Program-made: the position numbers and the translations under genes
In this document: in pieces, positions 17,700-50,721 of the stretch
Layout: each line of letters opens with the position of its first letter
How positions within the stretch are numbered: the first letter of the stretch is position 1
Notes under the pieces: model-generated
Seen by the model: only the letters and a program-made list of their open reading frames with translations
Told to the model about the DNA's origin: nothing
Databases searched by the model: none
Assembly (NCBI GenBank): GCA_021234155.1
Contig: JAJEKV010000005.1
Coordinates: forward strand, 15,784,826 to 15,848,825
Reading direction: 5' to 3'
DNA length: 64,000 bases
Source of the DNA: Isoetes taiwanensis
Lineage: Eukaryota > Streptophyta > Lycopodiopsida > Isoetales > Isoetaceae

Positions 17700-17704
17700 A
17701 ATAT

Positions 17705-17936: not shown

Positions 17937-17947
17937 CTCCCCCTTAA
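17937..17947 (-). other. Polypurine tract of element A
   Basis: In element sense this reads aagggggag directly before the LTR start TATTAACAG. It is the usual site for plus-strand priming. The same tract precedes the 3' LTR of element B (23551-23559). Confidence 0.85.
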
Positions 17948-19449: not shown

Positions 19450-19521
19450 AGCCTAAACTGGCTGATTAGCAATGGCGGCTGGATAAAGTAGACCGAAAGA
19501 TTTTTTTTTTTCTGCCTTCTG

Positions 19522-20123: not shown

Positions 20124-20136
20124 GGCTCTGATACCA
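20124..20136 (-). other. Primer-binding site of element A
   Basis: The element-sense sequence TGGTATCAGAGCC directly follows the 5' LTR. It is complementary to the 3' end of plant initiator-Met tRNA, the usual primer of plant copia and many gypsy elements. Confidence 0.9.
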
Positions 20137-20368
20137 TGTTATGAAATAGAATTGTGCGGAAAATTGTATATATTAGAGATTAATCAGAGTTAATCCAAAG
20201 AGCCTGGATTATGGCTTTACATAGTCAGTAAAGAGGCATGAGTTGCATCTCTTCATGAATGGACACATTCCACATCATCATGTCCTTTGGCATGGATTGA
20301 TGATGTGTACAAGCACAAACTGATTGTGTTTGTTCAGGGAGATTAATCCTTATTCATTTCTGTTAATA
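20137..20368 (-). repeat. 5' LTR of element A
   Basis: 232 bases, paired with 17705-17936, bordered on the right by the AATAT target duplicate (20369-20373). It must contain the element promoter; no strong TATA box stands out. Confidence 0.95.
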
Positions 20369-20767
20369 AATATGGACTTCCAACTATTTCACAATGGTTT
20401 AGGCTTGGCTTCCTGTACGTCTGCAACAGATAAAGGGACACAAAGTTCTATATTCTTCAACAATGCTAAAAGCTATTAAATGAGTTTCGAATCTGTCTGT
20501 GCGCCCAAATAAAAAGTATGATCCAATATATTCTCTGGCACTAGTTTTGGGCTTGCTTGATTTGTTTTTGCTTTTCAAGGTTCCATCAGATGATCAAATG
20601 CCCTTCTGAGACTTATCCTTCTGTGGTATAGCAGTAGACTACGTAGTTGCTGCTCAGGAAAATAAAGCCCAAATGCATTGAAGTGAATATCTGTGACAAC
20701 ATAAGAGGAAGGATTGAGACACAAACAAAGCTCTTCTCTGTAAAATCCATCCCCAATTCATAGTTAT

Positions 20768-21127
20768 TTGCGCTCCTGCACAAATTCCAACCACGAGCAT
20801 AATTTAAACTCCATTTCCGGTAGCAAATCGGCTCTGGTTTCTAGCACAGCCAAGAACAAAGTGGATTTTCACTTAGAAACAGGGGATCTCGGGCTAGAAA
20901 CAGGGGATATGATCTCTGAATCAAGAACAGGGGCTAAAAACAGGATTAGAGCTTATAAAGCCCCTAGCAATTGGGCGACCCCTTTGCAAAGAATTGCAGC
21001 GTACAAATTTGGAGATTTTGCTTTCAATTCGGCAATAGAATCTGCTGAGCTATGACGGACGTCTGAGATCAATGCCTTGCAAACAGCCATCGCGGATATG
21101 GGGAAAGGGAACACCGCTCTCCATTGG
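20768..21127 (+). pseudogene. Ankyrin-repeat gene fragment, 5' part, split by element B
   Basis: The plus-strand frame 20768-21055 continues in the same frame after a single TGA (21053-21055) into ALQTAIADMGKGNTALHW, up to the element B insertion. GNTALHW is the start of an ankyrin repeat. The frame resumes after the element at 23777 with AAIEGSSQVIYTLIS. Ankyrin repeats mediate protein contacts; the full protein cannot be identified. Upstream residues (ATPLQRIAAYKFGDFAFNSA) are in frame but not diagnostic. The TGA and the 2.6-kb insertion make it a pseudogene or gene fragment. Confidence 0.65.
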
Positions 21128-21339
21128 TATTAACAGAAATGAATAAGGATTAATCTCCCTGAACAAACACAATCAGTTTGTGCTTGTACACATCATCAAT
21201 CCATGCCAAAGGACATGATGATGTGGAAGTGTCCATTCATGAAGAGATACAACTCATGCCTCTTCACTGACTATGTAAAGCCATAATCCAGGCTCTTTGG
21301 ACTAATCTTGAATACATACAATTTTCCTGATTATTAACA
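21128..21339 (+). repeat. 5' LTR of element B
   Basis: 212 bases, TATTAACAG...TTATTAACA. It lacks about 20 bases present near the 3' end of the element A LTR. Paired with 23560-23771. Confidence 0.95.
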
Positions 21340-21353
21340 TGGTATCAGAGCCT
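21340..21353 (+). other. Primer-binding site of element B
   Basis: tggtatcagagcct directly follows the 5' LTR; complementary to initiator-Met tRNA. Confidence 0.9.
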
Positions 21354-21740
21354 CGTTAAAAGGCTAAAGAAATCGAGGGCTGCCTTGTAGAGCAGCCCAG
21401 CCCGAGCAAAAGTCAAGCAAACGATCCTGGACAATGCGGAAGAAATTAAGGTTTATTAAAATCTTAAATTTTTTTCTCTAAATCTTAAGCAAGCACATAA
21501 AGCAGTGAGATTATGCTGCCATGATATTGCTGATTAAAGCAAATTCATAACGGCTTCTGTACAAGAATTTTGAATTGGCATCCCCCCTGCCAAATTCATG
21601 TTAAGGTCTCTGCCATGAAGGGAATAAAGACTGAAAAGGATGCTGACGCTATCAAACGATGCTCAGCCTGAATTCCAGTGAACAAGACACTGAGAAATAT
21701 GCACAAAATTTGCATGAAAATCTCCTAGAGAGATAACTCT

Positions 21741-21941
21741 GTGAAGCGTTATGCCGCAGAAGAAAATTGCAGAAGAAAATTGCAGAAAGAAAAATGGGCC
21801 AATCTGAGTTATTGGATCCATCCAATCTATGGAGGGCAAGAAGGCCCTGCCCCTCCTTTTGAACAACGCCAGCAGAAAACAGATAGAAGCACCCTGGATT
21901 TATGGTGGAATCAAATTTTAACCCTTGATGTCAAACGGTAG
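21741..21941 (+). CDS. Element B first small ORF (unknown product)
   Basis: Open frame of 66 codons, counterpart of 19522-19737 in element A. It shares KWANLSY and IHPIYGGQEGPAPPFEQRQQ. No domain recognised. Confidence 0.35.
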   Translation: MKRYAAEENCRRKLQKEKWANLSYWIHPIYGGQEGPAPPFEQRQQKTDRSTLDLWWNQILTLDVKR

Positions 21942-22000
21942 CAGAAGGCAGAAAAAAAATCTTTCGGTCTACTTTATCCAGCCATCAGCCAGTTTAGACT

Positions 22001-22384
22001 ATGCCCGAAGATATGGCTCTTGCCCAGATCTCCAACAGGTCGCGACAATTTCTGCCGTCGCCCAAACCAAATTTTTTTGGCACAAATGTGCCACGTGGCC
22101 AGCCCAAACCAATTTTTTTTGGCACAAATGTGCCACGTGGCCAGCAAACCATCAGGTGCACCCTAACCGACGCACCTCTTCCGGCCACTTCTTCCTGCAC
22201 CCAGCCCGAAATTTACATTCTTAGCTCCACCAATTGCTACAATTTCCAAATTGCTCTTGAAGAGCCTGATCACCTCCTCAAGACTTATATCCTTATAGCA
22301 GAATATCATTCTAATTTTGGAGCATATTATTCAAGACCTTCCCTTGGTGCTGATAACTACGGACAAAGGCAAAAGACCTGCTGA
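22001..22384 (+). CDS. Element B upstream ORF with 14-codon duplication
   Basis: Open frame of 127 codons, counterpart of 19114-19449. At about 22062-22145 a 42-base unit encoding a PKPNFFGTNVPRGQ-like stretch is duplicated in frame. Each unit contains the palindrome ggcacaaatgtgcc and gccacgtggcc, which includes a CACGTG G-box. The product is unknown. The following ORF is in a different frame, as in element A. Confidence 0.5.
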   Translation: MPEDMALAQISNRSRQFLPSPKPNFFGTNVPRGQPKPIFFGTNVPRGQQTIRCTLTDAPLPATSSCTQPEIYILSSTNCYNFQIALEEPDHLLKTYILIAEYHSNFGAYYSRPSLGADNYGQRQKTC

Positions 22385-22460
22385 AGACCAATCTTCGAAC
22401 TCTCAATGCAGTTCAAAGTACTCACCTCCTCCAAAGCGAAAGGTGAAGTACTCTTAGAAT

Positions 22461-22997
22461 TTGTTTATGATAATGCCAGAACTCTTTAAGAATTCCAATA
22501 AAAGAGTTAAAATCATGGATTGTGAACTAAATTCACATCATCCAAATTTGGACCTCAACTCATACTGTTGCTCCAAGCATCAACAAGTGCTTCAGCAACC
22601 GGTGTACATTTTACACCATCCAGGGGGAGAGACCAAGGAACCTTGTTCCTTGAATGGTCGCCGGATTAATGAGAGTCCTCTTGAGATTATTGAGATCACT
22701 TCAGATGATGACACTCCAATTCCCAACGGAATTAATGAGAGTGCTCCATCCCCAATTTCTATCATAGATATTTCCAGTGACTCATCCCTTCTGGCAATTG
22801 AGTCTTATGATGGTGATATATCTGACCTTGAAAGATCTTCATCTCCTTATGAGCATTTTACAGATTGTTCTAGCATAAGTACTCATAATTCTGAAAACGA
22901 AGAGTTCTCTATGGCAACTGATGACGAATACCATCAACTCTTAGAAGTAGCCACAACTGGAGCTCAAGAGTATTCGAAGTCATCACACTCCAGATAA
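22461..22997 (+). pseudogene. SIM protein of element B, N-terminus cut off by a stop
   Basis: Homologue of the element A protein. The upstream part in the same frame (about 22322-22454) still encodes PPPKRKVKYS, then meets TAG where A has CAG. The remaining frame has no ATG at 22461 (TTG); the first ATG is at 22467. Both SUMO-interacting motifs are kept (EIIEITSDDD and SIIDISSDSS), as is the Ser/acid-rich C-terminus. If translated from the internal ATG, the product would lack the nuclear signal. Confidence 0.7.
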
Positions 22998-23559
22998 GTT
23001 GTTCAATTCTGTAAACGTAATAAAGCCATCCATAATAATTTGGATGCATAAACCCACGCATTCGTGGTCATCTACATGATGCTAAAGCCACCTCTAAGTG
23101 GTACTCCATAGGGCACTAACTCTTCTAGGTCCTTGATGACAATGTTCACTCAAGACCTAAAAACTCTCAACCTAGATCTTGTTGGAAGTTCCCAAGATCA
23201 AAAGGGGGAGAAGTTAGGGAAAGCCATAAGCACATGGCACACCCATTTTATGTGTGAAGAGTAGTTGGAGTTATTCTGGAAGTTTGATCTTATAAACTTC
23301 CAAAGGCTTGGATAAGTTCAAGTATTGCAGCTTACAAAGTTAAGGGTAAGTCCACAACCCTAGTGGCGTCTAACTTGTAATTTGGGAATAAACCCACATT
23401 AGATGGCACCCATAGTAATGAATGAAGACCACGTTATGGTGGTAATGTTTATCATGAAACTGCAAGTAAAGAAAGGAGCAATGAAGACTCCAAGATGAAG
23501 CTACAAAATTCTCAAGAAGAAGATTATACGAAGGTTTGTTCATGAAGATTAAGGGGGAG

Positions 23560-23771
23560 TATTAACAGAAATGAATAAGGATTAATCTCCCTGAACAAAC
23601 ACAATCAGTTTGTGCTTGTACACATCATCAATCCATGCCAAAGGACATGATGATGTGGAAGTGTCCATTCATGAAGAGATGCAACTCATGCCTCTTCACT
23701 GACTGTGTAAAGCCATAATCCAGGCTCTTTGGATTAATCTTGAATACATGCAATTTTCCTGATTATTAACA
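23560..23771 (+). repeat. 3' LTR of element B
   Basis: 212 bases, preceded by aagggggag and followed by the ATTGG target duplicate (23772-23776). Confidence 0.95.
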
Positions 23772-32426: not shown

Positions 32427-32644
32427 GGAGGCGATGGAGAGGCAAGAATTTGGCTAAGTCCCCCAAACAACAAAGGGAGAAGTAATGACCGGTGGAGATG
32501 AGACGTGAGAGAATGATCAGATGTGACAGGTGGCCAAAGGACACACATTAATGTTTGACGGGTATGAAAAGAAGGAATGGCATTTAATGCTGGCAACTCG
32601 GAGTGGTATAGCTTTAAAATGAAGGTGTCAGATGGTACCATGGC

Positions 32645-34290
32645 TGTGACGGTCCAAGGGAATATACGCCATAAATACGTATATTCCTGGATCCGTCACC
32701 ATACAAGTCTATCTTTATAGCCTTGTATACCATAGATTGTGGCACTAGGGGGCATGGCTAAGTTATTCTCATAACTTAGCCAACCATAGGTTAAGCCATT
32801 ATCCACGTGGCCTTAACCTATTGGGGCACCGCCACACAGGACTCACCCGATTGGTGCCACGTGGCATCCTAGGTGGACCTAAATTATATAGGCATAAACC
32901 CTAACCCTAGACCTCTTTCAGCCCTAGCACCCGTGAGACTCACCTACTTGTTCGAAACCCCGCTTCAACATCGCTCGCTAGGGCAAAGGCTGGTGCAAAG
33001 AGCCCCAGCAGGTAGACCCGCTCTTGGAGGAGGAACAACAGCTTGTGAGTCGAAGACTATGGAGGCGCCCGGATCTGGAGGGAGAGCATCAGGAGCAGGT
33101 ATGTAGGATAGTAGTTGTGATAGCTCATCTGGGATTAGCATTCCAGGTGTGCTAGTATTTTGTATCTAGAGTAGAGCCATCCTAGAACCCATATTCAACA
33201 TCTTGAACCCTAATCAAGGAACCCTAACTATTAGTTAGTTGTATGATTAGGTTAAGATGTTCTTCTTATGGTTATTCTCATGATGTGATGATTATGTGAT
33301 GATGGTTGATCATGTTTGCTCCTCTTGTATTGGGAAGGGGGGTAGAGACCTAGAGCCATATGTAGTATGCTCCTAGAGTAGACCCCTTAGTTCCTATTAG
33401 TTGCTGCCTGTGCATAGGAGCCCACCAGGCTATTGAGGCTATGATATGACTCAAAGACCAGATAACGGGCTAGAGGGAAAGTGGAGGGAGGATCCCCCGC
33501 CGAGTGGGGGCTTCTGGGATCCCATAGTGGGCTAGGCTTATGGTCGGTCACTCTGCGGTGGGCCGAGCATGGGTCCGACACCTCCCCGGGCAATGGTGTT
33601 GCCCTCCTCCTCGAGAGCCGCAAGTGATGGCTTGGCTCTCGCTTTGGGGGTTCGCCGGGTACGAATCGCGGTGTCGCCACGATTCTCTAGCCGCCCACGC
33701 ACCTCTAGACCCCGGAAGGGGAGATGCAACCCTTCCCGCCTCATCGGACCGTGGAGATGCAACCCGAGTAGTCCCGATGGGTGATGCCATGGGATTGTGA
33801 TCCCAAGGCTAGAGTCCCGGCTGTCGAGCCCGATCTAGCCCATCCGCAAAGCATGCACGTGAGGGGCGATGGAGTGGTCAACCCTAGCCATTAGCCTTAT
33901 GCCAGCCCCCGCCATTGCCATGACTCCTGGCCCCGCTTCTATCTTGAGGCTCTAGCCGGCCGGGCCATCCTCCTTATGAGTCCGGAGCCGGGTAGGAGCT
34001 CTCCCTTTTTATGGTTTGTGATTATCATCTTGGCATTGGTATATGTGTGGTGCACTACCCTTCGAGGTAGTATTTGTATATGTTTTATGCTAGTTCTCGA
34101 CGCGTTATCGCCTTCACTGCTATAGGAGCCCATAGGGGAAGGGCGCCGAAGACACCTTTCAGATTCCCCTTCCCGCACTAGAGTCATCTCGTGAAAGCGG
34201 GTAGACGGCGGGCCCATGCGTTGATGAGCCGATGGGGATTTCCTCGCCGAGGGTACGGCCGGCCGCCGTGTTTAGCAGTGGAGCGCCACA
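32645..34290 (+). repeat. 5' LTR of element C
   Basis: About 1646 bases. Promoter features lie in the first 270 bases (separate entry). Open frames inside (around 33387-33800) are not conserved in the 3' LTR, so they are not called as genes. It ends gagcgccaca before the primer site. Confidence 0.95.
32804..32910 (+). promoter_or_regulatory. LTR promoter of element C: two G-boxes, TATA, telo-box
   Basis: CACGTG G-boxes lie at 32804-32809 and 32858-32863, a TATA-type box attatata at 32883-32890, and aaaccctaaccctag (two telomere-type repeats, a plant telo-box) at 32896-32910. The same order is kept in the 3' LTR (TATA at about 44352, telo-box at 44364-44378). Transcription would start near 32915. 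Confidence 0.7.
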
Positions 34291-34865
34291 ATGGTATCAG
34301 AGCCGATGTTCTTGGTTGACCAAGAACTAGCACCGACCATAACCATGAAGTAGTCTAATAGGCCTATAGGAGTGTGGAATAAACATTTCCACCATCGAAC
34401 CGCGAAAAATGGGGAAAAAAAAAAAAAATTCCTCCTGTAGTGGGTCGAAATTAGGCTAAGTGTTAGACTAAGATTTGAGGGAGTCAAACGAACCTTCTAG
34501 TAAATTTGGAGTGAAAATTATGCATCTGCATCAAATTTCACCTAAAATGGGTCAAGAATCATGCCAATCGAGACCCAGTGAAAAAATGGCTAAAATTCAT
34601 AAATTGCACTTCTAACCATTAGGAAAATTCGAAAATTTTAAGATAATATCAATTAATATAGGTTAATATATACATTAATAGTTAAATAGTTAATTAAATA
34701 TCTTGTAATTAATAAGGGGGCTAATAAATAGGGGTAATTATGGTAGGAGAATATTCCCGTGGACCCTCTTTTTAAATATCCGACACCTCATTTTCTCTCC
34801 AACCCTTCACCTCCAACTCTCTCTTGCCCAAAATTTTCGTCACCCATTTTCTCGAACCATAAGAT
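34291..34865 (+). other. Primer-binding site and leader of element C
   Basis: tggtatcagagc begins at 34292 and is complementary to initiator-Met tRNA. The rest is AT-rich leader. Near its end TTTAAATA (34771-34778) is followed by a pyrimidine-rich stretch and then gatATGGC at 34866, an arrangement like a gene's own core promoter and 5' leader. Confidence 0.7.
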
Positions 34866-35954
34866 ATGGCTCGCACCAAACAAACTTACAGGAAGCCTGG
34901 AACAAGACCGACCCTCTCCATGGCGCAGGCAGCAGGGCGACATGTCAAGAAGATCCCGGAGCACCTCCGACCCAAGAAAGGGGAAGAGGAGCTTCCCCCG
35001 CCAGCCAGCAGAAGAAGAAATAAGCCTCCTTCCATGACGCCGGGAGACTCCCCCAGCAGTTCACCATCGGGCAGCACTCAGAGGGACCGGGCGAAGTCTC
35101 GGCATTTCGGGCCCTGACACCGAGGTGGAAGAAGAAGGGGAGGAGCAAAAGTGCAGCAGCAGTGGAGGAAGCGGGCCTCAAAGGCCCAAGAAGAAGGGAA
35201 AGGAAAAAGTAGCAGAGTGGCCGGAGGAGAGGGCCGCCAGGAAGAAGCGGGAGAGGGAAAGGGAGCTGAGGGAGGAGGAGAGGCGGACGAAGAGAAGGAA
35301 CGACGGGCCTCGCCGGACCGTCGTTATTCAAGAGCCACGCCGTAAGAGGAGCCGCAGTGGAGGAAGAGGGAGGAGGAGGAGCAGCAGATCCCGGACGCTG
35401 AGGCCACCCTACCCCAGTGGGTCGGAACCACCTAAGGTGGTGAAGAAACAAAAGGTAGGGGAGCTGGCATTTGGCGCCGCAGCAGACCGGAGTTCAAACG
35501 GAAGATGGTGGTGATATAAGGAGTACCTTCGCCGCTGGACGAGGTACAATGAGTGGTATTGCCAAATAGGAGGTGCAAATACGCCGCGGGTGGGCGGCAG
35601 TCAAGAAGAACCAGCCCAAGCCACCCCCACCTAGGCCGGAAAACCCAAGAGGGTTCACCACGGGCCGAACAAACACATACCGGGTAGTTTAGGGAGATTC
35701 TGCACTTCCGCATGTGCACGAATCTCCCCGATAAGGAAGGCGCTCTCTCGAGCGCCTCCTTAGAGAGGTCTTGCAGCCAGCCCTGACCGATTATAGGGTT
35801 ACCCCTCTAATGACCCGCCCCTGCAAGAGGCTTCCGGGCGTAGCTGGTCCAGCTCTTCGAGGAAGGGAACCTTCAAGCCATCCATGCTAAGAGAGTTACC
35901 CTTATGCCTAAGGATATTCACTTAGCACCTGAGGATCTGCAGGAGAGGCCCTAG
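34866..35954 (+). pseudogene. Histone H3-like ORF carried by the chromovirus
   Basis: It starts at an ATG in good context (purine at -3, G at +4) and encodes MARTKQTYRKPG; the first six residues after Met are those of the H3 tail, keeping K4, R8 and K9 positions but not S10. About 200 residues follow that H3 lacks, rich in Lys/Arg/Glu/Ser. From about 35671 H3-like pieces return across frameshifts: TYR and REI (alpha-N), RLLREVLQPALTDYR (alpha1-loop1), LQEAS, then at 35844-35927 LVQLFEEG joined to [17 protein letters not shown] (alpha2, loop2, alpha3). It ends ERP-stop where H3 ends ERA-stop. Loop 1 has about canonical length, so it is closer to H3 than to CENH3. Several indels make this copy inactive. 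Confidence 0.85.
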
Positions 35955-36640
35955 GCCTCAAATTTTGTAAATTTTGTAGAAGAATTAAAAATTTTCATGT
36001 AATTGTGTTTTTATTAATATAAAAGTCATTTTCCTCCAGAATTAGAAAAATGTTCTATGCTTGAAATATAGAAAATAGAACCCAATTGTGGTAGAATTCT
36101 TCATAGCATATATAGAAACACCCCCAGAAATCATGACTACAACAAAATTTTGGCAAAAAATCATCAAAAATGCAAAAATTGGGCCGGGCCGGGTGAGACC
36201 AAGGCCAATGGCCTCTCAAGGCCCCTCGACGCTGGCGCTGCTACATGGATTCACCCGGGCCACCCCCAAAATCTTGCTTTTAGATGTCGGGCTTTGCTCA
36301 AAATAAGTTGCTAGTTAGGTTAGAATTGGCCAATTAGCCATATTAGCATCTTCAAATTCCCTAAAATGGCCAAAAATTGGCTCCAAAACAGGCCAACCGG
36401 GTGAGATCACCGCCAAACGCTGTCAAGGCCCAAGACGCTGAGGCCATCCGCTGATTTCACCCCTGGTCGGGCCATCTTTGGCCCAAATTAGCCAAATTTG
36501 ATCCAACAAATTGCCATGTAGTGTTTCTTGCTTTGTTTTGCTTAAGTTTGCACTTCATGGTAGTTCATTTGGACACCTGCAGCCATAGAACCAAGGTCGC
36601 CTTTAGGTAAGCACCTTTTTGCACAAACCCCGAGGTCACC
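35955..36640 (+). other. Spacer after the H3-like ORF
   Basis: AT-rich 3' UTR-like sequence, then two related GC-rich blocks (about 36180-36260 and 36390-36470) sharing ccgggtgaga and a tcaaggccc...gacgctg pattern. No gene seen; the frame 36088-36306 lies in the repeated block. Confidence 0.5.
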
Positions 36641-36647
36641 CATAGTC

Positions 36648-36768
36648 TATAAAAATAGGTCTCATTTGCCATTTTTCTTCCTACGTAATCAAGCCCCCAA
36701 ATTTTTAGGCGATTTTCTCTCACCTCCACCCATCTTTGCAAGCCATTTTCTACACCCTTTCCTCGCCA
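36648..36768 (+). promoter_or_regulatory. Internal TATA box and leader before the second cargo ORF
   Basis: TATAAAAATA at 36648-36657 is followed by a C/T-rich leader and ATGGCT at 36769. Spacing and composition match a typical plant core promoter. It lies inside the element, between the H3-like ORF and gag. Confidence 0.5.
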
Positions 36769-38290
36769 ATGGCTTCAAAGAACTTTGAGAGATGGTACAA
36801 TGTTGCCAGCCATATCCATGTGCTTCCAAGTAGATCAAGCCTTCTCTCAGGTTTGATCACTTGTTTGATCTTCACGCAACTTTGACTAGAACACCCTACT
36901 ACACGCATTATATGTGCCAATATGACCAAAGGTCCCCCGCCTTTGGGAAGTTAGGATCGCCTCCTAGGGAGGGAATTGGGTTTCCCTTGAGACACTTACC
37001 CAAGCCTTAGGTCGAGAGTCGGGCAGATCCGCAGGCAAGAAGCAGCCTATGGGATAGGACTAGACCATGCCCCATTACATGACCCCGGCATACATAGGCA
37101 TAGGTACCTTTCAGCCTGCATGCCCCCCTGCCCTCTTCATGCATTATAAGTCAATCAACAAAGTAGGGGAACCCTCCTGCTCAGCCCTTAGACTTAGCAC
37201 CACTTGATACCCCAGAGGGCCCGTGATCAAATCCTGAATATAGAGTCCTCCCATACTTAATATTACGGACGACGCCGGGCTACCATCTCTACAGATCCAT
37301 GAAGACTACGAGCAGCTAGGGGAGCGTAACCCGTAATGGGAGAGCAGGAGGCAACAAGAATGCGGAGATATGCGGCCGAGGCATGACGACGACGTGAGAA
37401 CAGCTACCGATCCACCGGGCATCAGATCATACCTTTGTCGCCGATAGTCATCGACGGGAGGAGTACATTTTTGCAAATGACATCCTCAATTTGTCCCACC
37501 GTCGTGAATGTGGTCTTCGAATCGACGAGCTCTTGGGTATGATAGCACACCTGAAGAGCACGCACATCATCGACTACTCATACCGAGATCCCAAGGGAGC
37601 CGGGCGGAGAGACACTCTTATGCCGGGGAGACAATGTCGGATATAGCAGCCTATCGCCAGATAAGGGAGATCTATCGACGCCAGAGCCTATCATCTCGCA
37701 GGGAGGAGTTCCAGCAGATACAGAGCACACTCTACAAACCGGAAGGGCCCAAGCTCGCCCACCGCCCGAGCCGAGCATGAGGGAAGGGTCCAAAGAAGAT
37801 TAACTTGGACAACGCAAACCAAAGATGTGGAGGGATCATGAAGACCTTATGGCGGTGGATGCCTACGGCGGCAGCTCAAAGGAAGGGCAATCGGATCGCG
37901 AGGCGAGGGAAGGGCGCCGCACTTCGCTACTATCTTCCAGCCCTCACCAAAAGGCAAATGATAGTCTTCCACAAGGAGTTCAGCCCAAGGGGAAGAACTG
38001 CGGCACTTCTCATAGCGCTTTCTTCGGGCAAAGACTCAAGATATAATGCCATGCCGATCACATCATTCTTTTCAACAGGGGCCAGGGCCCATTGCCTCGA
38101 CTTTGGCGAGAGGGCACCGAGGGATGCAACACTTTCGGTAGCAAAGAATAAACCTGTAACTCCCGAACCGTAGATGGCCCGAAAGCACTTGAAGGAAGAT
38201 CAACGAGGAACATCTTTATGCAAACTCCCAAAGGCCTCCGATTCGTGGATGTCAAGAACTTCTTCAGGCTTCGAGGCCACCTAATAGTTG
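36769..38290 (+). pseudogene. Unrecognised second cargo ORF of element C
   Basis: A short frame begins at ATG 36769 (MASKNFERWYNVASHIHVLP) and stops after about 40 codons. Coding-like sequence resumes at about 37400, with HRREEYIFANDILNLSHRRE followed by LGMIAHLKSTHIIDYSYRDP. It continues in broken frames (37508-37780, 37805-38173) to a double stop near 38283 and an AT-rich 3' flank. No zinc knuckle or capsid motif is seen, so I do not call it gag. It could be an N-terminal gag region, a separate accessory gene or captured host sequence. Confidence 0.4.
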
Positions 38291-38489
38291 TAAAATTTCT
38301 TAAGTTTGTGCTAAATGTTTCTTGTACCCATTGTGCTAAGATATATCTACTTTATCATGTAATCCTTATGTATTAATGACTATTAACTGGTTTGTCAATG
38401 TAAGGCTTTGTATGATTTCTTATAACTAAAGATAATTCAATTTGCAAGTAAAATTGATCAACATCTAACCCAAATAAAATGTATTGATG
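38291..38489 (+). other. AT-rich spacer before gag-pol of element C
   Basis: About 200 AT-rich bases that look like a 3' UTR of the preceding ORF; no motif. Confidence 0.45.
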
Positions 38490-39760
38490 ATCAATCCTTG
38501 CAGCAAGGAACTCAAGTGCAGGATCTCAAGATCAGCACCGACCACGCAATTGGGTACCAAGGAATTTGTTTGGCAGGGAACAAGAAGATGTTGAGCAGGA
38601 TATGTCACCGAGGCAGCCAAACAAGGTTGGTGCGTATGAGGAATCAGATGCAACACCTCATCAACTGGGCGACACCTCTCATGAATGCACAGGAAGATGG
38701 TCACCCACCTCCACCTTGTTTTCCGGGTGGTGACGAAGTCCCTCAGCAGGAAGGGGAGGGCAACCAAGGGAACGTCAGGGATAGGAGAAGGAAGAGGAGA
38801 ACCAGGAGCCCATCATCATCCAGCTCCAGCCATCGACAGCTTCTTCCAAAGGAGGACAGCTCTAGCTCCGACGGTATGGGCCGGACACACCTAAAGCAGG
38901 AAAAGAGCAAGAAAGACAGTGATTATCGAAAAAGGTGGATAGTGCTATGAGCAATGTATGGAAGACAAGGAAGCTCGGCCAGCCTCGTGGAAGGACAGAT
39001 CGCATGGAGGCTGAAGCATGGCTTGATGAAATGGAAGAATTTGGCAACTCATACCTGGTATGAAAGACAAGGACATAGGGAAAGTTGCTACAACTAACCT
39101 TATTGGACCCAAGAAGGATCCGGGTGGAAGGGATATGCTAAATCCAACAAGCCGAAAAGGAACAACCGCAGTTTAAGACTTTCAAAGAAGGTTTTCCGCA
39201 AGCACTATGTGCCAAGGTCTCATACTAGTAGACGATCCAAAGAGCTTTTTTACAAAGTTGAATCGGTAGTTTATCGCTGGCTAAGTATACGTAAGAATTT
39301 ATGAGGCTCAGCCGCATGTTCCCGAGTCTCGAGAGGCAAGCCGTGGATACTTACATTGAGGGGTTGAATAGCAATATCAAGAGGCTTTGTTAGAGCAATC
39401 AACCCAAGTCGGGCCAAGCAGTCAAGATAAAGCTATAAGTTTGAGGAGGCACCAAAGAACTCCACAGAGAAGCAAATAACCTTCGTGGGTAAGAGTTCGT
39501 GGCAAAAGATCGTGGACAATATCGTAAGCAATCAGCAGCCTACACCATCGTGGAGTCAGCAGCAAGGTAAGGGTCGAGCAAAGCTTTTGGGGACCGTAGA
39601 AGCCACGTAATGCATCGTGGGCAGCGCCTTAAGCCGCCTCCTAGACAACACGGGGAAAAGAGACAGAATGCATTGAGAAGAAGTTATGCTTCAAAGCTTC
39701 CAGCCGTGGCACCGGACACATGATTGTCCATTCGCCATGCAAAGCCTTGGCGTAACTCTT
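38490..39760 (+). pseudogene. Element C gag
   Basis: The first 150 codons (38498-38950) are charged and Ser-rich (RRRKRRTRSPSSSSSSHRQL). A capsid-type segment at about 39298-39390 reads FMRLSRMFPSLERQAVDTYI followed by EGLNSNIKRL, matching the retrotransposon gag pattern of an RLS-x-P helix followed by a GL-x-x-I turn. At 39688-39727 a zinc knuckle is split by a one-base loss: CFK in one frame, then FQPWHRTHDC in the next, giving the spacing of C-x2-C-x4-H-x4-C. Gag packages the RNA. Many stops are present. Confidence 0.65.
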
Positions 39761-41780
39761 GGATTGGGACTCCCCAACGTAGTTTTATCGAGGACGATGA
39801 CCAGCCAGAGGCCCAGACTTCATAGATGGTGAGTGTCACATATGTGCAAACATTGAGCTCGATGATATAGAGAATCACCAACCGGCCATCGCTGCTGATG
39901 GGATCATAGATAGTAATCCTTATGTAGTCCTCATAGATACAGTAGCTCTCATAATTTTGCATCTCCTAGATTGGTCACGCTCTAATGAAGAACAAGGTAT
40001 TGAAGTCTAAGCCAAGGCCAAGAGGCTATGGCTAAATCCACCATTCGCACACTAAGGGGAGGAGGATCACCTTTGACATAGACCTTAGTGGGGCTAAGGG
40101 TCGATGGGAGCAGAAGTCATGGACATCGGAAGATATGATCCGATAGTAGGGATGGAATTTTTGAAGCCAGCCAAAGCCATGATTGATTGCGACCGAATGA
40201 AGTCACCATGACGGCACCTGCACGGCAGCAAGTTGATAGTGAAAGGTAAGAAGCTAGATTCTCCTATGCAAAGGTATTTCTTTGAAGCAGCCTAAGGAAG
40301 AGTATAGAAAGGAATAAGGTGGATTACATCTTGAGGATGGAATCGCGGAGCCAGTGCAGGGATGGAAGTGACACAAAGGGAAATCAGCCGCCCGCATTGA
40401 TAGCAAGGCTTATTTCAGAGTTCAAGGATGTATTTCCCGATGAAACCGCAGCCGCCACCTTATAGGGTGTGGAATGTGAGATCACATTGGCTCCCGATGC
40501 GGCCTACCAAGAAGGCGCCATATAGAATGAGCATCCCAGAATTGACTGAGCTCAAGAAACAAATGCAGAATTGCTCGAAGCTTGGATTTATAAGAGCAAG
40601 TGTGTCCCTTTCGAGCACCTATACTTTTGTCAAGAAGAAAGATGGAAGCTTAAGAATGTGATAGACTATCGCCAGCTTAATAAGCGCACGATAAAGAATA
40701 AGTATGCATTGCCAAGGGCGGATGACCTAATGGATCAGCTTGCAAGGAGCAAAGGTATTCTCTAAAATTGATTTGAGGTCGATACCATCGATAAGAATTA
40801 AAGAAGAGGATATCCATAAGACCGCCGTAACGCCAGTATGGTCATTTTGAGTTTACAAGAAATGCCCTTTGACTATCGAATGCCCCAAAGAACGCTTATG
40901 CGCCTTATGAACCACATCTTCGTGAGACTTCTTGATGAGTTTGTTATTGTCTTCTTCTCGACGACATCCTAATCTACAAAGAAGTCCCTTTGAAGAGCAT
41001 TGTCGATCTCGTGAAAGTGTTGGAGAAGTTGAGACGCCATCTGCTGTATGGGAAGCTCTAAGTGCCACTTTGCAACAGCCGGGTGGAGTACTTGGGGCAT
41101 GTAGTAACATCCGAGGGAATCTCCACAGATCCATCTAAGATTGAGGCAATAGTTGATTGGCCAGCCCAAGGAATGTGGCGAAGTAAGAAGCTTTCTGGGT
41201 GGCATGGATACTACGTAAAAGTTCGTGGAAGGACTTTGCTAAGGGGCGCCCTCCGGCCTGACCCTCACTAAGGCCAAGAAGATTAAGGATTGGGCTAGCC
41301 ATTGGCTAGAGAAAGTCCAAGCTTTTTTGAGAAGCTTAAAGAGGCCTTTAACAACAAAGACAAAGGCTTGTTCTCCCTGATCCGAGTAAGGATAAGTTGG
41401 TAGCAAATGATGCAAGCAAGATAGCAACAAAGGCGCCTTGATGCAAGAAGGAAGGGTAGTCGCCACGACTCCAAGAAGATGAACGACGCCGAGCAACGCT
41501 ACCCAACCCATGATCGAGCTGCTAGCCATTGTCGGGGCATTGAGGATATGGAGGCATTATCCACCGGCAAGGAAGTTTCAGCTTGGATACCGATCACCGT
41601 GAGCCTTCAAGATTTTTCACCCAGCCACCCTCAACTTAAGGCAAAGGAGGTGGATGGAATTCCTTGAGGAATATGATTTTGATATTATATATAAGCCCGT
41701 AAGCTTAATGTTGTAGCGCCCTCCGTGAGACCATTTCGCATAAGGACGATTGTAATGCGATTTCCACTTTTCGAAAGTGA
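39761..41780 (+). pseudogene. Element C protease remnant, reverse transcriptase and RNase H
   Basis: The protease end is recognised by YDPIVGMEFLKPAKAMIDCD at about 40140-40195; the active-site D-S/T-G is not visible. RT begins at about 40420. [20 protein letters not shown] and [13 protein letters not shown] lie at about 40660-40765, then [20 protein letters not shown] across shifts. The catalytic YxDD is lost in a broken stretch near 40950. Connection and RNase H are readable only in scraps (VRSFLGG; THDRAAS near 41508). Decay is heavier than in the integrase. Confidence 0.7.
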
Positions 41781-41954
41781 GTTTGGCAAGAAGATTGAGG
41801 AGTCCTTGCCAACAGATGTAGACTTCAAGGAGGTATGGGAAAGCCTTTCCAAGGAAGCCGTAATGATAAGGAGCCGGAAGCCTTCAAGCATTATAAGAAG
41901 GAAGGCAACCCGTTGTATCACAAACATAAGTTGTGTGTGCCCTAATCATCGTGG

Positions 41955-43015
41955 GTAAGGAAGCTAATTCTTCATGACACACATAACAGCCCAATAGCAG
42001 GGCATGCCGGCTTCATGAAGACCTATTTCAAGATTCTGGCAGCTACTTCGCCAGAATGAAGAGGCGATAGCCGCATATATTCGGGATTGCCGCTATGTCA
42101 CAGTACTGGCTAGGCGAAAGCAACTTCGATTCCCGGGCTTTAGAGCCATTGGGGTGCCAAATGCAAAGTGGGAGGTCATAAGCATGGATTTCATCACAGT
42201 CTCCCTAGAACTCTTCGAGGCAAGGATGCATTGATGGTGGTCGAGATAAGTTATCTAAGATGGCACATTTTGTGCCTTGCAAGACTACCGACACCGCATT
42301 AGATAATCGCCAAGTTATTCGTAAGGGAGATTTTCAGACTCCATGGCATGCCTCGAGATAATATCCGGATAGGGACCTAAGAAGTTTATGAGTGCCTTCC
42401 GGCAGACCTCTTCAGCACCATCTCGACGAAGCTTCCATGAGTACCGCATATCATCCCCAAACAGATGGCCGACGGAAAGGACGAATCGGATCATTGAAGA
42501 CATGCTTCGAGCTATGTGTGGAATAAGCAATCCAAGTGGGATGAGTACATCCACTTGGTGGAATTCGCCACAACAAGCCAAGCAGAGTCATCTCGTGATG
42601 TCTCCTTTATGGTAAATTACGGTACCGCTAAGCTTAACCCCGATACCGGCACAACCCGCGGTCCAAGGTAGAAGTATCCCAGCCAGATGTTAGGGGATAT
42701 GCAGCAGCTAGTAGAGGAAGTAAGGGGTTATTTATTGGCGCAGAAGAAGTCGGCGTAAGAGTGTAGCCGCACGCAAGCACGACCGTGGCGGGAGTTTAAG
42801 GTGGGCTGGCACCGCTTGGTTGAAGATCAAGGTGAAGCAAGCCAAGCCGCTGGATTGGGAGCTGCAAGAAGCTTGCCCCTAGGTGGGCCGGGTCCGCTCA
42901 AGATTTTGGAGAGAGTGGGCTCTCAAGCCTACAAGTTGATCTTCCAGCCCATCTTAAGGTCCACAAGGTCTTCCACGTAAGTTTATTAAAGAGGCACAAT
43001 CCTAACCCCAGGAGG
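41955..43015 (+). pseudogene. Element C integrase with GPY/F module
   Basis: The zinc-binding HHCC start is seen as HNSPIAGHAGFMKTY at about 41985-42028. The core shows KWEVISMDFIT (first catalytic Asp) at about 42168, KDALMVVEISYL nearby, GMPRDNIRI at about 42340, PNRWPTERTNRIIEDMLRA (catalytic Glu) at about 42458-42515 and KWDEYIHLVEFATTSQAESS at about 42534. A GPY/F-type module, GPLKILERVGSQAYKL, lies at about 42890-42940. This is the enzyme that inserts the cDNA; it has several frameshifts and stops. Confidence 0.8.
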
Positions 43016-43117
43016 TTTTGGATACTCCAACTTTGTTGGAAATGACTGAGGAGCAAGTAGAAATAGTGCCCTAATTGCTTCTTGATAAGTCATTCAAGAA
43101 GACTAGAGGTCCCAGCC

Positions 43118-43208
43118 CTCCAATATTTGGTTAAGTGGAAGCACTTACCCGTGGAAGATGCACATGGGTATTGAAGCAAGACTTGGAGAAGCAATACCCG
43201 AGTTTATG
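43118..43208 (+). pseudogene. Integrase C-terminal chromodomain of element C
   Basis: LQYLVKWKHLPVEDA is followed, after a one-base shift, by TWVLKQDLEKQYPSL. This is the chromodomain core: strand YLVKW, the ED-A-TW turn and the C-terminal helix. Chromodomains on chromovirus integrases direct insertion into chromatin by contacting histone H3 tails or associated marks. It follows the GPY/F module by about 100 bases, the expected place. Confidence 0.8.
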
Positions 43209-44120
43209 AAGGAGTTTGATGGGCGAAGTCGCCTCCGACTTGGTCGAACCCGACTCTGCCGTGTGGTTAGCTAGTATGTTGTTAGTTAGCCCTAAGCCCG
43301 GGCGATGCATTCTAGTTACTAGGGTGCATGTGCCGAACCTTGGATCGTGGGCTTATGATGGGATACGCCTTTAGGGCATTCTTTCTAGGCCACACGCACC
43401 AAGAGGTGCGCATGACCATTAGGGTCATGTGAGTGAGGAATGAGGCATGGTGGGCGATGATGGGACATCGACGATGATCTCTATGCCACGACGCGGGTAC
43501 GCACACCGGGCCGTAGGGAGGGTCATGGTGAGGCTTAAGCGATCATGCGCGATGATGGGATCGCGGAGACGCTCCCTAGCTGAAACCCCGGGCATGATGC
43601 ATCGGGTGTACTGATCCCGGGATCGTGGTACAAGGTAGCACTCGATCATGGGCAATGATGGGAGCATCTTAAATGATCCCTAAGCTCAAACCGGAAGGGC
43701 CATGATCTTGGGCAAGGTAGGGACAACCTTGAGCCAAGGTTCGCCTCAAGGAGGTAAGGGGGTGGTCCCCTAAAACCACAAATTATTAACTAAACTAACG
43801 TAATGTGCTCCTTTTGCAGGCAAGTAGAAGGAGGACTTCAACGAGGAGCGCTTACATTTAGAAGATAGGGGAGCCATAATTAGATTATGAACCCTAATAA
43901 CTCTTATAATAGTATTTTGAATTATTATAAGAAATAACGATGTTAAGGCTATATAATTTTGTATAAGTACAAATATGGCCTAAAAATTTTGACTTGAACT
44001 AATAAAACTTGATTGCTAAACTAAACTAAAGATTATGACATGTTGTTGATGTGTTGCGCATAAGGTAGGTTCGTCACCTTAGCGCAATGTCGAGGACAAA
44101 GATTGTCCTATTGAATGAAA
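43209..44120 (+). other. 3' noncoding part of element C
   Basis: No gene. Imperfect short repeats of a gatgatggga-type unit occur at about 43350-43700, and AT-rich sequence at 43880-44040. No clean polypurine tract is visible before the 3' LTR. Confidence 0.55.
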
Positions 44121-45738
44121 TGTGTCCAAGGGAATATACGCCATAAAATACGATATTCCCGGATCCGTCACCATACAAGTCTATCTTTATAGCCTTGTAT
44201 ACCATAGATTGTGGCACTAGGGCATGGCTAAGTTATTCTCATAACTTAGCCAACCATAGGTTAAGCCATTATCCACGTGGCCTTAACCTATTGGGGCACC
44301 GCCAATAGACTCACCCCATTGGTGCCACGTGGCATCCTAGGTGGACCTAACTTATATAGGCATAAACCCTAACCCTAGACCTCTTTCCAGCCCTAGCACC
44401 CGTGAGACTCGACCTACTTGTTCGAACCCCGCTTCAACATCGCTCGCTGTATAGGCTGGTGCAAGCAGCCCCGCCAGGTAGACCCGCTCTGGAGGAGGAA
44501 CAGCAGCCTTGTGAGTCGAAGACTATGGAGGCTCCTGGATCCGAGAGGGAGAGCATCAGAGCGGTATGTAGGATAGTAGTTGTGATAGCTCATCCGGGAT
44601 TAGCATTCCAGGTGTGCTAGTATTTTGTATCTAGAGTAGAGCTATCCTAGAACCCATATATTCAACATCTTGAACCCTAATCAAGGAACCCTAACTATTA
44701 GTTAGTTGTATGATTAGGTTAAGATGTTCTTCTTATGGTTATTCTCATGATGTGATGATTATGTGATGATGGTTGATCATGTTTGCTCCTCTTGTATTGG
44801 GAAGGGTAGAGACCTAGAGCCATATGTAGTATGCCCAGAGTAGACCCCTTTAGTTCCTATTAGTTGGTTACTCAGCATATTAGAGCCCACCGTGCTATTG
44901 AGGCTATGATATGACTCCAAACACCGATAATCGGGCTAGAGGGAAAGTGGAGGGAGGATCCCCCGCCGAGTGGGGGCTTCGGGATCCCATAGTGGGCTAG
45001 GCTTATGGTCGGCCACTTTGGTGGGCCGGCATGGGTCCGGACACCTCCTCGGGGCAATGGTGTTGCCTCCCTTCCTCGAGAGCTGCAAGTGATGGCTTGG
45101 CTCTCGCTTTGGGGGTCCATTGGCAAAATCGTGTGTCGCCACGATTCTCTAGCCGCCCACGCACCTCTAGACCCCCGGAAGGGGAGATGCAACCCTTCCT
45201 CGCCTCATCGGACCAGGGGAGATGCAACTCGAGTAGTCCCGGCGGGTGATGCCACGGGATTGCGTGATCCCGAAGGCTAGAGTCCCGCAGAGCCTGATCT
45301 AGCCCATCTGCAAAGTATGCAATGAGGGGGCGATGGAGTGGTCAACCCTAGCCATTAGCCTATGCCAGCCCTCGCCATTGCCATGACTCGGCCCGGCTTC
45401 TATCTTGAGGCCCTAGCCGGGCTTATCATCCCTCCTTATGGGGTAGGAGCTCTCCCCGCTTTATGGTTTGTGATTATCATCTTGGCATTGGTATATGTGT
45501 GGTGCACTACCCTTCGAGGTAGTATTTGTATATGTTTTATGCTAGTTCTGACGTGTTATCGCCCCGGCCGTTATAGGAGCCCATAGGGAAGGGCGCTAGC
45601 AAGACACCTTCAGAGATTCCCTTCCCCGCACTAGGAGTCATCTCAGAGTGGGTAGACGAAGGGCCCATGCGCTGATGAGCCGATGGGGATTTCTCGAGGG
45701 TACGGCCGGGCGCCGTATATTTAGCAGGGAGCGTCACA
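44121..45738 (+). repeat. 3' LTR of element C
   Basis: About 1618 bases, aligned throughout with 32645-34290 but with many substitutions and small indels. Its first bases are slightly degraded (tgtgtccaag against tgtgacggtccaag). Followed by the ATGGC target duplicate. Confidence 0.95.
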
Positions 45739-45743
45739 ATGGC

Positions 45744-46955: not shown

Positions 46956-48371
46956 TTAGGAGATAATCCGGCCAACTCCCTTGATGGTATGATTGATAAA
47001 ATGGACACCACGATCACCGACCAGCCCGGGGGCAGCCAAATCGCGGATAATTTGTTGATAGAGGACCTTTGGCCGCGTTTGCCGCAGTTGTTGTCCGAAG
47101 TGCGCAAGCCCGCTACCACTTAGTAGCCGTGAAGTCGAGAACTGTAACGTAGCGGGCCCGGGTGTGCCGCCAGAGGATCGGAGTGGGTCCTCCCACAAAA
47201 TCCATTCCCATTTGCTGAAGGAAGCATGCATGACCGGCGCCAAGGGAAGAGCCGCCACGTCAGTGTCGGCCCCACACCGGGCAAGCATCACACGCAGGGC
47301 GTATGCGAGCCGCTTTTGAAGAGCTGCGGCCAAAAATACGCCTAGAAGGATTTTATGCGTCGTGGTGTCACCATGAAAAAATGACCACCACCTAGCCCCT
47401 TGATGAGCTTCTGACAATATCCGAACTTCATGAGGTAGAACACAACGCCGTAAGGATGGTATCCTTACCCTTTTGTAAAGATGTCCCGCAACCATGGTGT
47501 AGTCACCTGACTTCGGGAGAAAACTGATGGCTTTTAATGATTGTCGCTTTGGCAGAGAGAGCCGCCGTCCTTCCGGGTGAAGAGCACCCGTGAGGAGGTA
47601 CTGCTGAAAGTCATGGAACCAATGTGGTGTTGCCGTGACTAAAAAGAGTTGAGCGTCGGAAAGGCGGCCTGAGACTCCAGTGGAGGGATCATCGGTGTGG
47701 ATGCGTGAAAGATAATCCGGGACAACATGAGATTTGCCGGCTTTGTGAACAATTTCAAAAGGTGCAAATTCTTGGAGAAGAAGGACCCAACGAGCAATGC
47801 GGCCCGTGGGCGTGGATTTGTTGATCAAATAAAGGAGTGCTTGGTGGTCAACAAAGAACTTGATTTGACTGCCCAAAAGGTAGTGACGGAAGCGTTGGAC
47901 ACAGAAAATTAGACCCAAAGCTTCACGCTCAGTGGCAGAGTAGTTGCGCTCAGCAGAATTGAGTTTTCTGCCGGCGTATCGGTTTGGTTTGTCAGTGTGC
48001 ACATCATATTCTTGAGAAAGAACGGCTCCAATAGCAAACGCCGAGACATCGACATGAACATGAAAGGGCTTGTCCCATTGAGGAGGAACAAGAACCGGGG
48101 CCTGAGTGAGCAAGAGCTTCAACTGTTGGAAAGCAGCTTCCGCCTGGGAATTCCAAACCCAGGTGGATTCATCACCCGTGAGTTTATGAATGGGATCTGC
48201 AATGGCTGCTAGTCCAGGAATGAAGGTGGAGTAATAATTGACCTTACCCAGGAAAGAGCGTGTGGTGCTTGAGCCTTTAGCACACAACTGATTTTGGCAG
48301 GATCTGTGGTGATACCTGCTTTGCTGACAACGTGTCCTAACAGAACACCTGAGGTGACACAAAAGGTGCAT
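46956..48371 (-). pseudogene. Element D RNase H and integrase N-terminal part
   Basis: Long open frame of 471 codons, the best preserved piece of element D. It begins with SFLGKVNYYSTFIPGLAAIA (RT connection), then RNase H: HVHVDVSAFAIGAVL, RNYSATEREALGLIFCVQRF and KFFVDHQALLYLINK. The integrase zinc-binding region follows (LPHEVRILSEAHQG). The core decays near its end, where KVLYQQIIRDLAAPGLVGDR and GVHFINHTIKGVGRIIS are still seen. Together these remove template RNA and insert the cDNA. Confidence 0.85.
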
Positions 48372-49090
48372 TTCTCTGGATTGAGACTAATGCCAGACTC
48401 ATCACATTTCTGAAAGACGAGTTCCAATTTATCCAAATGGTCAGCCATGGAACTGTAGGCAGAGAAGTCATCTTGAAAAATTTGCAAGAAGGGATTTTCC
48501 TTCATGAAATCATGAAAAACTGAGAGCATGATGCGTTGAAACGTGGATGGAGAGTTTGATAAGCCAAAAGGAACCACCTTGTAGGCAAAAGTGCCCTCTG
48601 AGGGTGGTGAAAGTAGTCTTGAGTTGATCGATTCTTTGATTGAGATCCGACAGCCGAAAACCATCCATGAAGGAGTACATCTCATGTCCAGCCTACCTCT
48701 TCGAGAACCCGGTCCGCGGAAGGGAAGTGGAAAAATGATCACGCCCGTGGCTTGATTGAGTTTTCGGTGAGTCCCACGCAAATGCGGATCTTACCATTGT
48801 GTTTGAGGGCAATGACGATGGGGCTCACCCATTGAGAATGTTTGACCTTATAGATCAAACCCGCAGCAAGAAGTTTGTCAATTTACGCCTTGACGCGATC
48901 GCGGTAATTAGGGTTGAGCCGCTTTTGTCGTTGCTATCTTCGTGCATCGATTTGGTAGGGAATGGTGAGTTCCCCAAAGGTTTTGTTGATCCCCAAGATC
49001 TCTCGTAGCTCGTGCGAAAAATGTGTTTGAACTTTTGAAAAGCGTGGACGGCCCTGCTACGATAGGGGGCTCCAAGATTTGCGGACAAGC
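48209..49090 (-). pseudogene. Element D reverse transcriptase
   Basis: At 48209-48781 the frame reads GTFAYKVVPFGLSNSPSTFQ, the gypsy-type RT box, then LQIFQDDFSAYS with both catalytic Asp at 48467-48472, and LNPEKCTFCVTSGVLLGHVV. The preceding part (48782-49090) holds the N-terminal RT boxes in shifted frames. It makes cDNA from element RNA. Overlap with the next frame near 48209-48371 reflects a frameshift. Confidence 0.8.
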
Positions 49091-49578: not shown

Positions 49579-50721
49579 CTAACTCGATCCGCGGGCCCAA
49601 GAATGGATACTCTTGGCCCGGCGGAGAAAAGGTCTGCCGACCAACATTTCATAATCACCGGGATCTTCCCTAGCCTTCCAAACTCCAAATTCCAAAGGGA
49701 ATCGGAGGTCACCAATGTTGATGTGAAGAAGAGGCGTGACGCCTTGAGGTCTCGTGATATGGCCATTAGCCAATTTGATGTCATATGGGGCACGATAGAG
49801 TTCTTTGATGCCCATTTGTTTGCGGAGTTTATCCGTTATGAGATTAACTGCACTACCTCCGTCAATTTGAACATGGTTGACTTGCTGATTACCCACCGTG
49901 GCATGGACCGTGGGTGTAGAGGTAGCAACAGCCCCAACCAAGACAGTCGGGAGTGGTAACTGGTCCTTGAGAGCAGGACAGAGTTTCAAAATTGTTGCCA
50001 AACTTAAGGGAATTTTGATTTTTGCCAGCTCCTCTTGGAGTTCCAAAGGCACATGAGAAAAAGGATCTGCTGGTTCCACGGGTGCTGGAGTGCGTGGTAA
50101 TGAAGCAGCAACTTCTTTGAGTAGGTCAACCTCTTCAGCAATATTGGGATATGTCTGAGAGCGTGGAGGTTGAGATGTGGAAGGTGTATCTTGCCTTTGT
50201 TGAGCTCTGGTGGTGGCATGAACATTCGCAAGCGTGCGGCCTTCAGCAGCTTGCATGAGGTTCAAAATGCTTTGGCGAACTTTAGGCATGACATTCGGCA
50301 TGAGTTTCTCCAAGTCAGGTGCAAAGTGAACCTTTTTTTCATCTTCATGAGGAATGGTGTCTACTGCAAAGGCAGGTTGCGTGCCATTAGGAATAATGGT
50401 TAAGGGACATGACGCCCTGGTCTGGCGTGAAACCAAACCAACCCAATTTGATGGCTGAACTGGAGGATTAAGTGCCTGAAAAATTTCTTCCTGTGCTTGT
50501 TGATCCATCTGAGGTTGATTGGCAAGAGCGGGTTGATAGCGTGATTGCTGAGGCGCTCGAGGTGGCTTCTTAAGAACAGGACGCGGGCCTTGTTTGCCAT
50601 TAGCAACCCAGAGTTGGTAAGCCGTGAGGCGGACCGATGTGTGCCAGGAAGTTGCACTTGAACTTGTGGAAGTTGAGGACACGCCGTGGTTGTATGACCC
50701 CATTCTTGACAGTGATAACAC
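49579..50721 (-). pseudogene. Element D gag C-terminal linker and aspartic protease
   Basis: Open frame of 380 codons. The first part is a Pro/Gln-rich linker. The protease active site is HVQIDGGSAVNLI with D-G-G at 49855-49863, the form common in plant gypsy elements, and the second conserved box is YEMLVGRPFLRRAK near 49610. It cleaves the polyprotein. The linker follows the zinc knuckle in the overlapping frame 50400-50963. Confidence 0.8.

Follow-up and report, generated by a model that had tools for sequence, protein, structure and literature searches.

The window, a stretch of 64,000 nucleotides of the Isoetes taiwanensis genome, contains an LTR retrotransposon on the forward strand at 32645-45738, flanked on each side by the 5-bp target duplication ATGGC (32640-32644 and 45739-45743). 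Its 5' LTR (32645-34290; 1,646 bases) matches the 3' LTR (44121-45738; 1,618 bases) with 92.1% identity over 1,594 aligned sites, a K2P distance of 0.084. Directly behind the 5' LTR lies a primer-binding site, TGGTATCAGAGCC, at 34292-34304, which we take to be of the initiator-tRNA-Met type, followed by a leader (34305-34865) that reaches to an H3-like gene. Paired LTRs, target duplication and primer site identify this copy as a Ty3/gypsy LTR retrotransposon, its gag, reverse transcriptase and integrase content being recognised by motif only. Transposons of the hAT type make 8-bp target duplications and have no LTRs; a hAT element with H3 cargo was considered for the window and rejected, as the duplication is 5 bp long and direct LTRs were found (repeat search with a minimum of 60 bases).

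All further regions of the element lie on the same strand and are decayed. A region matching a second extra ORF of other copies, here called ORFX, was placed by position only at 36720-38285 (approximate bounds), and the DNA within it aligns with other copies in two mid-region segments. Fragments of gag occupy 38426-39965, again with approximate bounds set by position; their counterpart in another copy was recognised as PF03732/PF19259. The reverse transcriptase region (40286-41300), which served as a DNA anchor for finding other copies, was identified from motifs by eye, and two pieces of it gave no match against Pfam. An integrase region with an SH3-like part and a chromodomain (42019-43250, approximate bounds, partly by eye) was matched by SH3_Tf2-1 (E = 1.9e-8) and, below the cutoff, by the Chromo domain (E = 0.0012). 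Elsewhere in the window, long open frames on the reverse strand at 46956-48386 and 49579-50727 belong to another gypsy-like element with RNase H-like and protease-like parts by eye, and a set of repeats, inverted as well as direct, about 0.2-1.6 kb long and with 77-99% identity is present at 16290-23740 and 56432-57426.

The H3-like gene of this copy spans 34866-35954, inside the LTRs as the earlier note had placed it. It begins with an H3-like N-terminus, MARTKQTYRK (34866-34973), continues with a decayed charged and proline-rich linker (34974-35690) and ends with the H3 histone-fold region through the stop codon (35691-35954), where the frame is broken. The block at 35844-35951 was recognised as PF00125 Histone with E = 6.7e-10. 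When the window was searched with canonical H3 by tblastn, the C-terminal 35 residues were found with E = 6e-9 and the tail, taken alone, with E = 0.078. A frame-tolerant alignment recovered H3 residues 50-135 at 35691-35948 with a score of 136, against a mean of 25.6 (SD 4.6, maximum 46) for 60 random window segments, a maximum of 42 for 60 shuffles, 28 for the reversed strand and 29 for reversed H3. A chance match was ruled out by the tblastn search and these alignment controls.

The gene of the window copy is decayed: tail and core are both present, and 10 internal stops interrupt the frame of the tail and the last block before the stop of the last block itself. The earlier note had described an ORF just behind the primer site that opens with the H3 tail and closes with an H3 core block. 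Its content and position stood, the tail being visible at 34866 and the core being recovered by profile search here and in an unbroken copy; the ORF itself did not, on account of the stops, nor did the direct adjacency, as about 575 nt separate the start from the primer site. The interpretation drawn from it, an H3-like gene carried by the element, was supported, neither of the two outcomes that the note had named as refuting it having turned up.

The last 36 residues served as query in a search for copies across the whole genome (1,658,258,908 bases in 1,110 contigs), and the best 150 of 5,834 first-look candidates were scored. All 150, the window copy included, match the C-terminal block, and 39 have an open frame of at least 300 aa. 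Among the top eight matches, of which the window copy is one, open frames do not exceed 169 aa; many copies of this family (family 1) are decayed. Twenty of the 39 copies with long frames were fetched. The succession of LTR, leader, H3 and the next 1.4 kb was the same as in the window element in every one of them, with a leader match in each, the LTR match being partial in two (L012 and L015), and DNA of the gag start matched in 18. The 12-mer TGGTATCAGAGC of the primer site was exact in 17 of these 20 other copies, chosen as they were for long H3 frames, and in 12 of the 20 the frame is unbroken between the MARTK start and the H3 C-terminus, with a length of 362-378 aa.

Because these 20 copies had been chosen for long H3 frames, a second sample was anchored on the reverse transcriptase DNA, taking 20 of 39 other matches, the best-matching ones and not a random draw. 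Seventeen of them have the H3 core where it was expected; in the remaining three (L059, L063 and L067) ORF1 was not found within the 1.4 kb fetched. In most sampled copies the H3-like gene was thereby shown to lie between the primer site and gag, and the expectation of the earlier note that other copies carry it at the same place was borne out in both samples.

The family-1 protein, as predicted from the 12 unbroken copies, consists of an H3-like start, a charged and proline-containing stretch of about 260 aa and a complete H3 fold. Eleven of the 12 start with MARTKQT and one with MARTKRT; at position 7 of mature H3 six copies have A and six have Y, K9 is kept, and K4 and K9 stand within ARTKQT(A/Y)RK in 11. 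K, R, E, S and P are abundant in the linker, which in most copies contains the conserved stretch RPPYPKW...YLRRWTRYN.WYC. The fold ends in LARRIRRERP and was recovered both by profile and against solved H3 chains: in L010, whose fold is shortened by a small deletion, PF00125 was found with E = 1.3e-22, and residues 275-371 matched H3 chains with a best E of 8.3e-26 (175 distinct sequences at E<=0.001).

Fourteen positions (R63, K64, R69, R72, R83, C110, H113, K115, R116, T118, D123, L126, R129 and I130) are fixed in all 20 long-frame copies. The kept residues include positions of the H3-H3 interface and DNA contacts. K56 is lost, with M in 19 of 20 copies, and so is Y99, with E in all 20. At the alpha-2 chaperone site (87-90) LMTR is found in 18 of the 20 family-1 copies and FAIL in all nine copies examined of a second family described below; five host H3 genes have SAVL (three), TAVL (one) or HAVL (one). 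According to a review, this site decides the assembly pathway (PMC9145170). The canonical tail with its modifiable lysines is absent, as family 1 keeps only about the first nine residues and lacks most tail lysines. Since K56, Y99, the alpha-2 site and most tail lysines are changed in family 1, normal assembly is not assured.

None of the 32 protein-database candidates for relatives of the linker (residues 186-292 of one copy) reached E<=1, and the family-1 protein had no match among viral contigs. The C-terminal block as query returned 33 proteins at E<=1, which are other H3-like proteins. The whole protein was scored against the 8,000 candidates sharing most words with it, a selection in which relatives sharing fewer words could be missed; 2,939 passed, and the six examined of the best 120 are gene models of tandem H3 or mixed histones. 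In three database proteins (P0001, P0006 and P0014) the H3 core is accompanied by a Ulp1-type protease domain (PF02902). Three others (P0002, P0004 and P0007), two of which stand for 12 and 15 member sequences, are long and charged with an H3 core at the end, and are possibly a similar case elsewhere.

A second family emerged when the genome was searched with the canonical H3 core and the best 150 of 9,028 first-look candidates were scored. Fifteen of these are host H3 genes with 96-97% identity, all starting with MART, and the other 135 have 82-87% identity to canonical H3, many with open frames of more than 300 aa. Counted from the likely start, two family-2 proteins, L046 and L048, are about 421 and 425 aa long; their first 315-320 residues or so are unlike family 1 and are followed by the H3 core. 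PF00125 was found in two proteins of this family with E = 2.6e-41 and 6.8e-40 (the latter L046), and no Pfam match above the cutoff was obtained ahead of the core of L046. The two proteins with a full N-terminus start with MA(T/I)TK(S/T)T, so that the H3 tail is replaced.

The 8 kb starting about 1 kb beyond another family-2 H3 contain the end of a long ORF, gag, protease, reverse transcriptase, integrase parts and a chromodomain, all on the same strand; in L049 the domains follow in the order Retrotrans_gag, RVP_2, RVT_1, Integrase_H2C2 and rve (rve at E = 0.003, below the cutoff). An SH3-like domain and, at the C-terminus of the integrase, a chromodomain (PF00385, E = 1.8e-9) are present as well. 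Family 2 thus has the gag-protease-reverse transcriptase-integrase order together with the chromodomain of chromoviruses, and the naming of the window element as a chromovirus holds, with the domain clear in this related family and below the cutoff in the window copy. Anchored on the reverse transcriptase, eight family-2 loci were examined, again best-matching ones and not a random draw: ORF1 was matched in six, with the H3 core included in five, and was not found in the other two within the 0.9 kb fetched. The short stretch of DNA upstream of five family-2 loci, which does not extend to the LTR ends, showed no primer site. The gag of both families has a zinc-knuckle match below the cutoff. 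Among viral contigs the family-2 protein had one H3-like match with 38% identity, a stretch at 1001-1285 of an IMG/VR viral contig (L078).

Degenerate DNA patterns gave 2,436 genomic places for the AIHAKRVT block, 463 for the family-1 form, 758 for the family-2 form KRVTIMPKDLA and 78 for the canonical form KRVTIMPKDIQ; these are places in the genome and not a count of elements, and some degenerate codons would also accept Ser in place of Arg, or Phe in place of Leu. The reversed pattern gave zero matches for all four forms. The 78 blocks of the canonical type stand against 15 host H3 genes, and among the matches listed many are nearly identical in DNA spelling, as if there were a third repeated H3-bearing group.

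Family-2 gag matched 17 of the 20 family-1 loci by tblastn (63-66% identity in four of the five matches shown, 46% in one), and both families have a second extra ORF ahead of gag (L047, 1852-3297, and L016, 4879-6441, both on the forward strand) without a Pfam match; family-2 ORFX matched 11 of the 20 family-1 loci, with 20-25% identity in the five matches shown, and had no match in PDB at E<=1. The N-terminal part of family-2 ORF1 matched none of the 20 family-1 loci by tblastn. A comparison of N-terminal profiles (seven versus two sequences) gave E = 0.19, on which a common N-terminal region was rejected; the start M-A-x-T-K-x-T, common to both, is no more than a hint. In a tree of H3 cores, which besides the family-1 copies took in nine of 10 family-2 loci (L070 gave no core by pattern), 18 proteins from the database and five of the 15 host genes, the cores of the two families did not form one clade, and because of this a single capture cannot be claimed over two. 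The shared ORFX and gag favour a common ancestor of the elements themselves.

Selection on the gene was assessed by pairwise Nei-Gojobori dN/dS, without a tree, on copies chosen for open frames. In family 1 the ratio was 0.117 for the whole ORF (12 copies) and 0.043 or 0.044 for the core (12 and 20 copies); values of 0.147, 0.046, 0.150 and 0.090 came from linker pieces and 0.163 from the first 38 residues. In its two other reading frames the core DNA gave 2.72 and 2.65. For family 2 a pN/pS run was made with nine family-2 and six host loci, in which the family-2 core had 0.087 over the nine copies and frame controls of 1.7 and 7.7. The earlier note had proposed to test the copies for dN/dS below 1, and it was found in core and whole ORF alike. 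These ratios demonstrate strong purifying selection on the H3-like gene.

A comparison with gag could be made for the five of the 20 loci in which gag is also open. Here the core had a dN/dS of 0.061, gag 0.087 and the whole H3 ORF 0.129; constraint on the core is thus no weaker than on gag, whereas over the whole ORF it is weaker. The noncoding leader of the same loci, used as a control in three frames, gave 1.00, 0.65 and 0.71, and ORFX gave 0.196 in five family-1 copies that form a partly different set. Synonymous divergence among L010, L011, L016, L019 and L020 was 0.72 in the H3 ORF and 0.52 in the gag start, versus about 0.1 in the leader; constraint on the leader or methylation-driven change could possibly account for this excess.

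We consider it probable that the H3 gene, as ORF1 of a Ty3/gypsy chromovirus family with high copy number, encodes a retroelement-borne H3 variant, kept by selection as a working part of the element, that would pair with host H4 and enter nucleosomes. As both families keep the fold and differ ahead of it, a nucleosome or H3-H4 complex is also the function that they more probably than otherwise have in common; the fold, which they share, is a likelier common denominator than mimicry of the tail, since the N-terminal region is not recognisably shared. The element RNA would be translated into the H3 variant, which would enter the nucleus and pair with host H4, as suggested by the kept interface and DNA-contact residues. 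H3-H4 tetramers and nucleosomes might then form on element cDNA, on new insertions or on target chromatin, the altered alpha-2 chaperone site and the long N-terminal region setting the destination and possible marks. The likely gain would be that silencing is weakened or redirected, or that integration is steered. A more specific version, in which the element's own H3 replaces host H3 on element DNA or targets and, together with the integrase chromodomain, controls the chromatin of its own silencing, is put forward tentatively, somewhat short of even chances. In the integrase chromodomain (YLVKWKHLP) W45 is kept by eye and the third aromatic residue is not; since that residue is missing, as in group II, simple reading of H3K9me by this domain is doubtful.

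Other readings of the gene were weighed against the H3 variant that enters nucleosomes, which itself has several results against it: the changes at K56, Y99, the alpha-2 site and the tail lysines, the reverse transcriptase-anchored loci in which ORF1 was not found in the DNA fetched, the many decayed copies, the lower constraint on the whole H3 ORF (0.129) than on gag (0.087) in the shared loci, where the core alone exceeds gag, the H3 tree that leaves the two families apart, and the excess of synonymous divergence in ORF1 over the leader. The protein might build no nucleosomes and serve as a decoy or sponge that ties up H4, H3 chaperones or writers and readers of the H3 tail, thereby weakening silencing. 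The ARTKQT(A/Y)RK start with K4 and K9 in 11 of the 12 unbroken family-1 copies, the altered chaperone site and the long charged linker would all suit such a role. Constraint on the core would be superfluous for a tail decoy, however, and family 2 is without the H3 tail in its two full N-termini, yet has the fold nearest to canonical H3; we regard this reading as rather unlikely. Somewhat less likely still is a structural role, in which the histone fold and basic linker would package RNA or cDNA inside the particle or the pre-integration complex, with host chromatin uninvolved. It would fit an ORF1 upstream of gag with a linker rich in basic residues, but the gag of both families already has its (sub-cutoff) zinc-knuckle match, and a fold so near H3 with so many fixed residues seems more than packaging needs.

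That the gene is a passenger, either a captured H3 fragment hitch-hiking in the element or a one-off pseudogene insertion, agrees with the broken window copy and has a precedent in Pseudocercospora fijiensis, where H3 captured by a hAT transposon is reported to have been amplified and every copy but the original inactivated (PMC6710886). Against it stand the family-wide position, dN/dS values of 0.04-0.13 and the presence of H3 in two diverged families, which make it very improbable; the one-off insertion was rejected on position and dN/dS. The long variable N-terminal region ahead of an H3 core recalls CENH3 in outline, and the loci could on that ground be a family of host genes, CENH3-type or ordinary H3, invaded by retroelements. 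CENH3 has a longer loop 1, and a CENH3 origin was rejected because loop 1 is of canonical length in both families. With the spacing of LTR, leader and H3 nearly constant in all 20 copies and the host H3 genes forming a separate set (15 matches at 96-97%), a host gene family is hardly credible.

The reading as an element-borne H3 variant matters in that transposon silencing works through histone H3, and an element making its own H3 would attack or bypass silencing at its base. The H3s of these elements would form a natural set that differs in tail, K56, Y99 and chaperone site with the fold retained, and the general question of whether a transposon alters its own chromatin becomes testable on one protein.

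The earlier note knew of no LTR retrotransposon with an H3 cargo, and no retroelement with a histone gene was found in the open-access literature searched (titles and abstract starts of the papers listed). The word histone is absent from the main text of the two published Isoetes genome papers (including PMC8566536), of PMC5408684 and of PMC6431247. Within that literature the parts are known and a selected H3 in LTR retrotransposons appears to be new. Plant chromoviruses with group II chromodomains lack the first and usually the third aromatic residue (PMC3350952), to which the Isoetes motif is similar by eye; the text consulted makes no mention of H3 cargo. Non-histone cargo is described for other LTR elements in PMC9289625 and PMC5408684. 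The former reports orchid Ty3/gypsy elements with an ORF for an AlkB-type m6A demethylase. There too gypsy elements of plants have acquired an ORF of host-like character with a proposed bearing on host control, but the cargo is an RNA demethylase and not a histone.

Transposons multiplying an H3-like coding sequence are known from the fungal hAT elements of Pyrenophora tritici-repentis (H3L, PMC3538342) and Pseudocercospora fijiensis (PMC6710886). These are DNA transposons, whereas the Isoetes case is a plant LTR retrotransposon with the H3 core fused to a long N-terminal region and under selection in two families. In the way it would work, a selected H3 gene in a virus-like replicon, as Ty3/gypsy elements are, the Isoetes gene compares with virus-encoded histones. 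The bracovirus histone CpBV-H4 joins host nucleosomes and alters host gene expression through its N-terminal tail, according to PMC5423620; it differs in being an H4, of a polydnavirus, that acts in a moth. PMC9145170 covers six DNA viruses with a single H3 gene (xenomavirus, DSLPV1, three MAGs and Sylvanvirus), likewise H3 alone in a selfish replicon. Some of these have an extended or divergent tail, and three have SAIL or TAIL at the alpha-2 site, versus LMTR and FAIL in the Isoetes elements. None of the six replicons is reverse-transcribing, and the N-terminal additions reported for their H3s measure 35-68 residues (PMC9145170), compared with about 230-290 residues beyond canonical H3 in the Isoetes elements.
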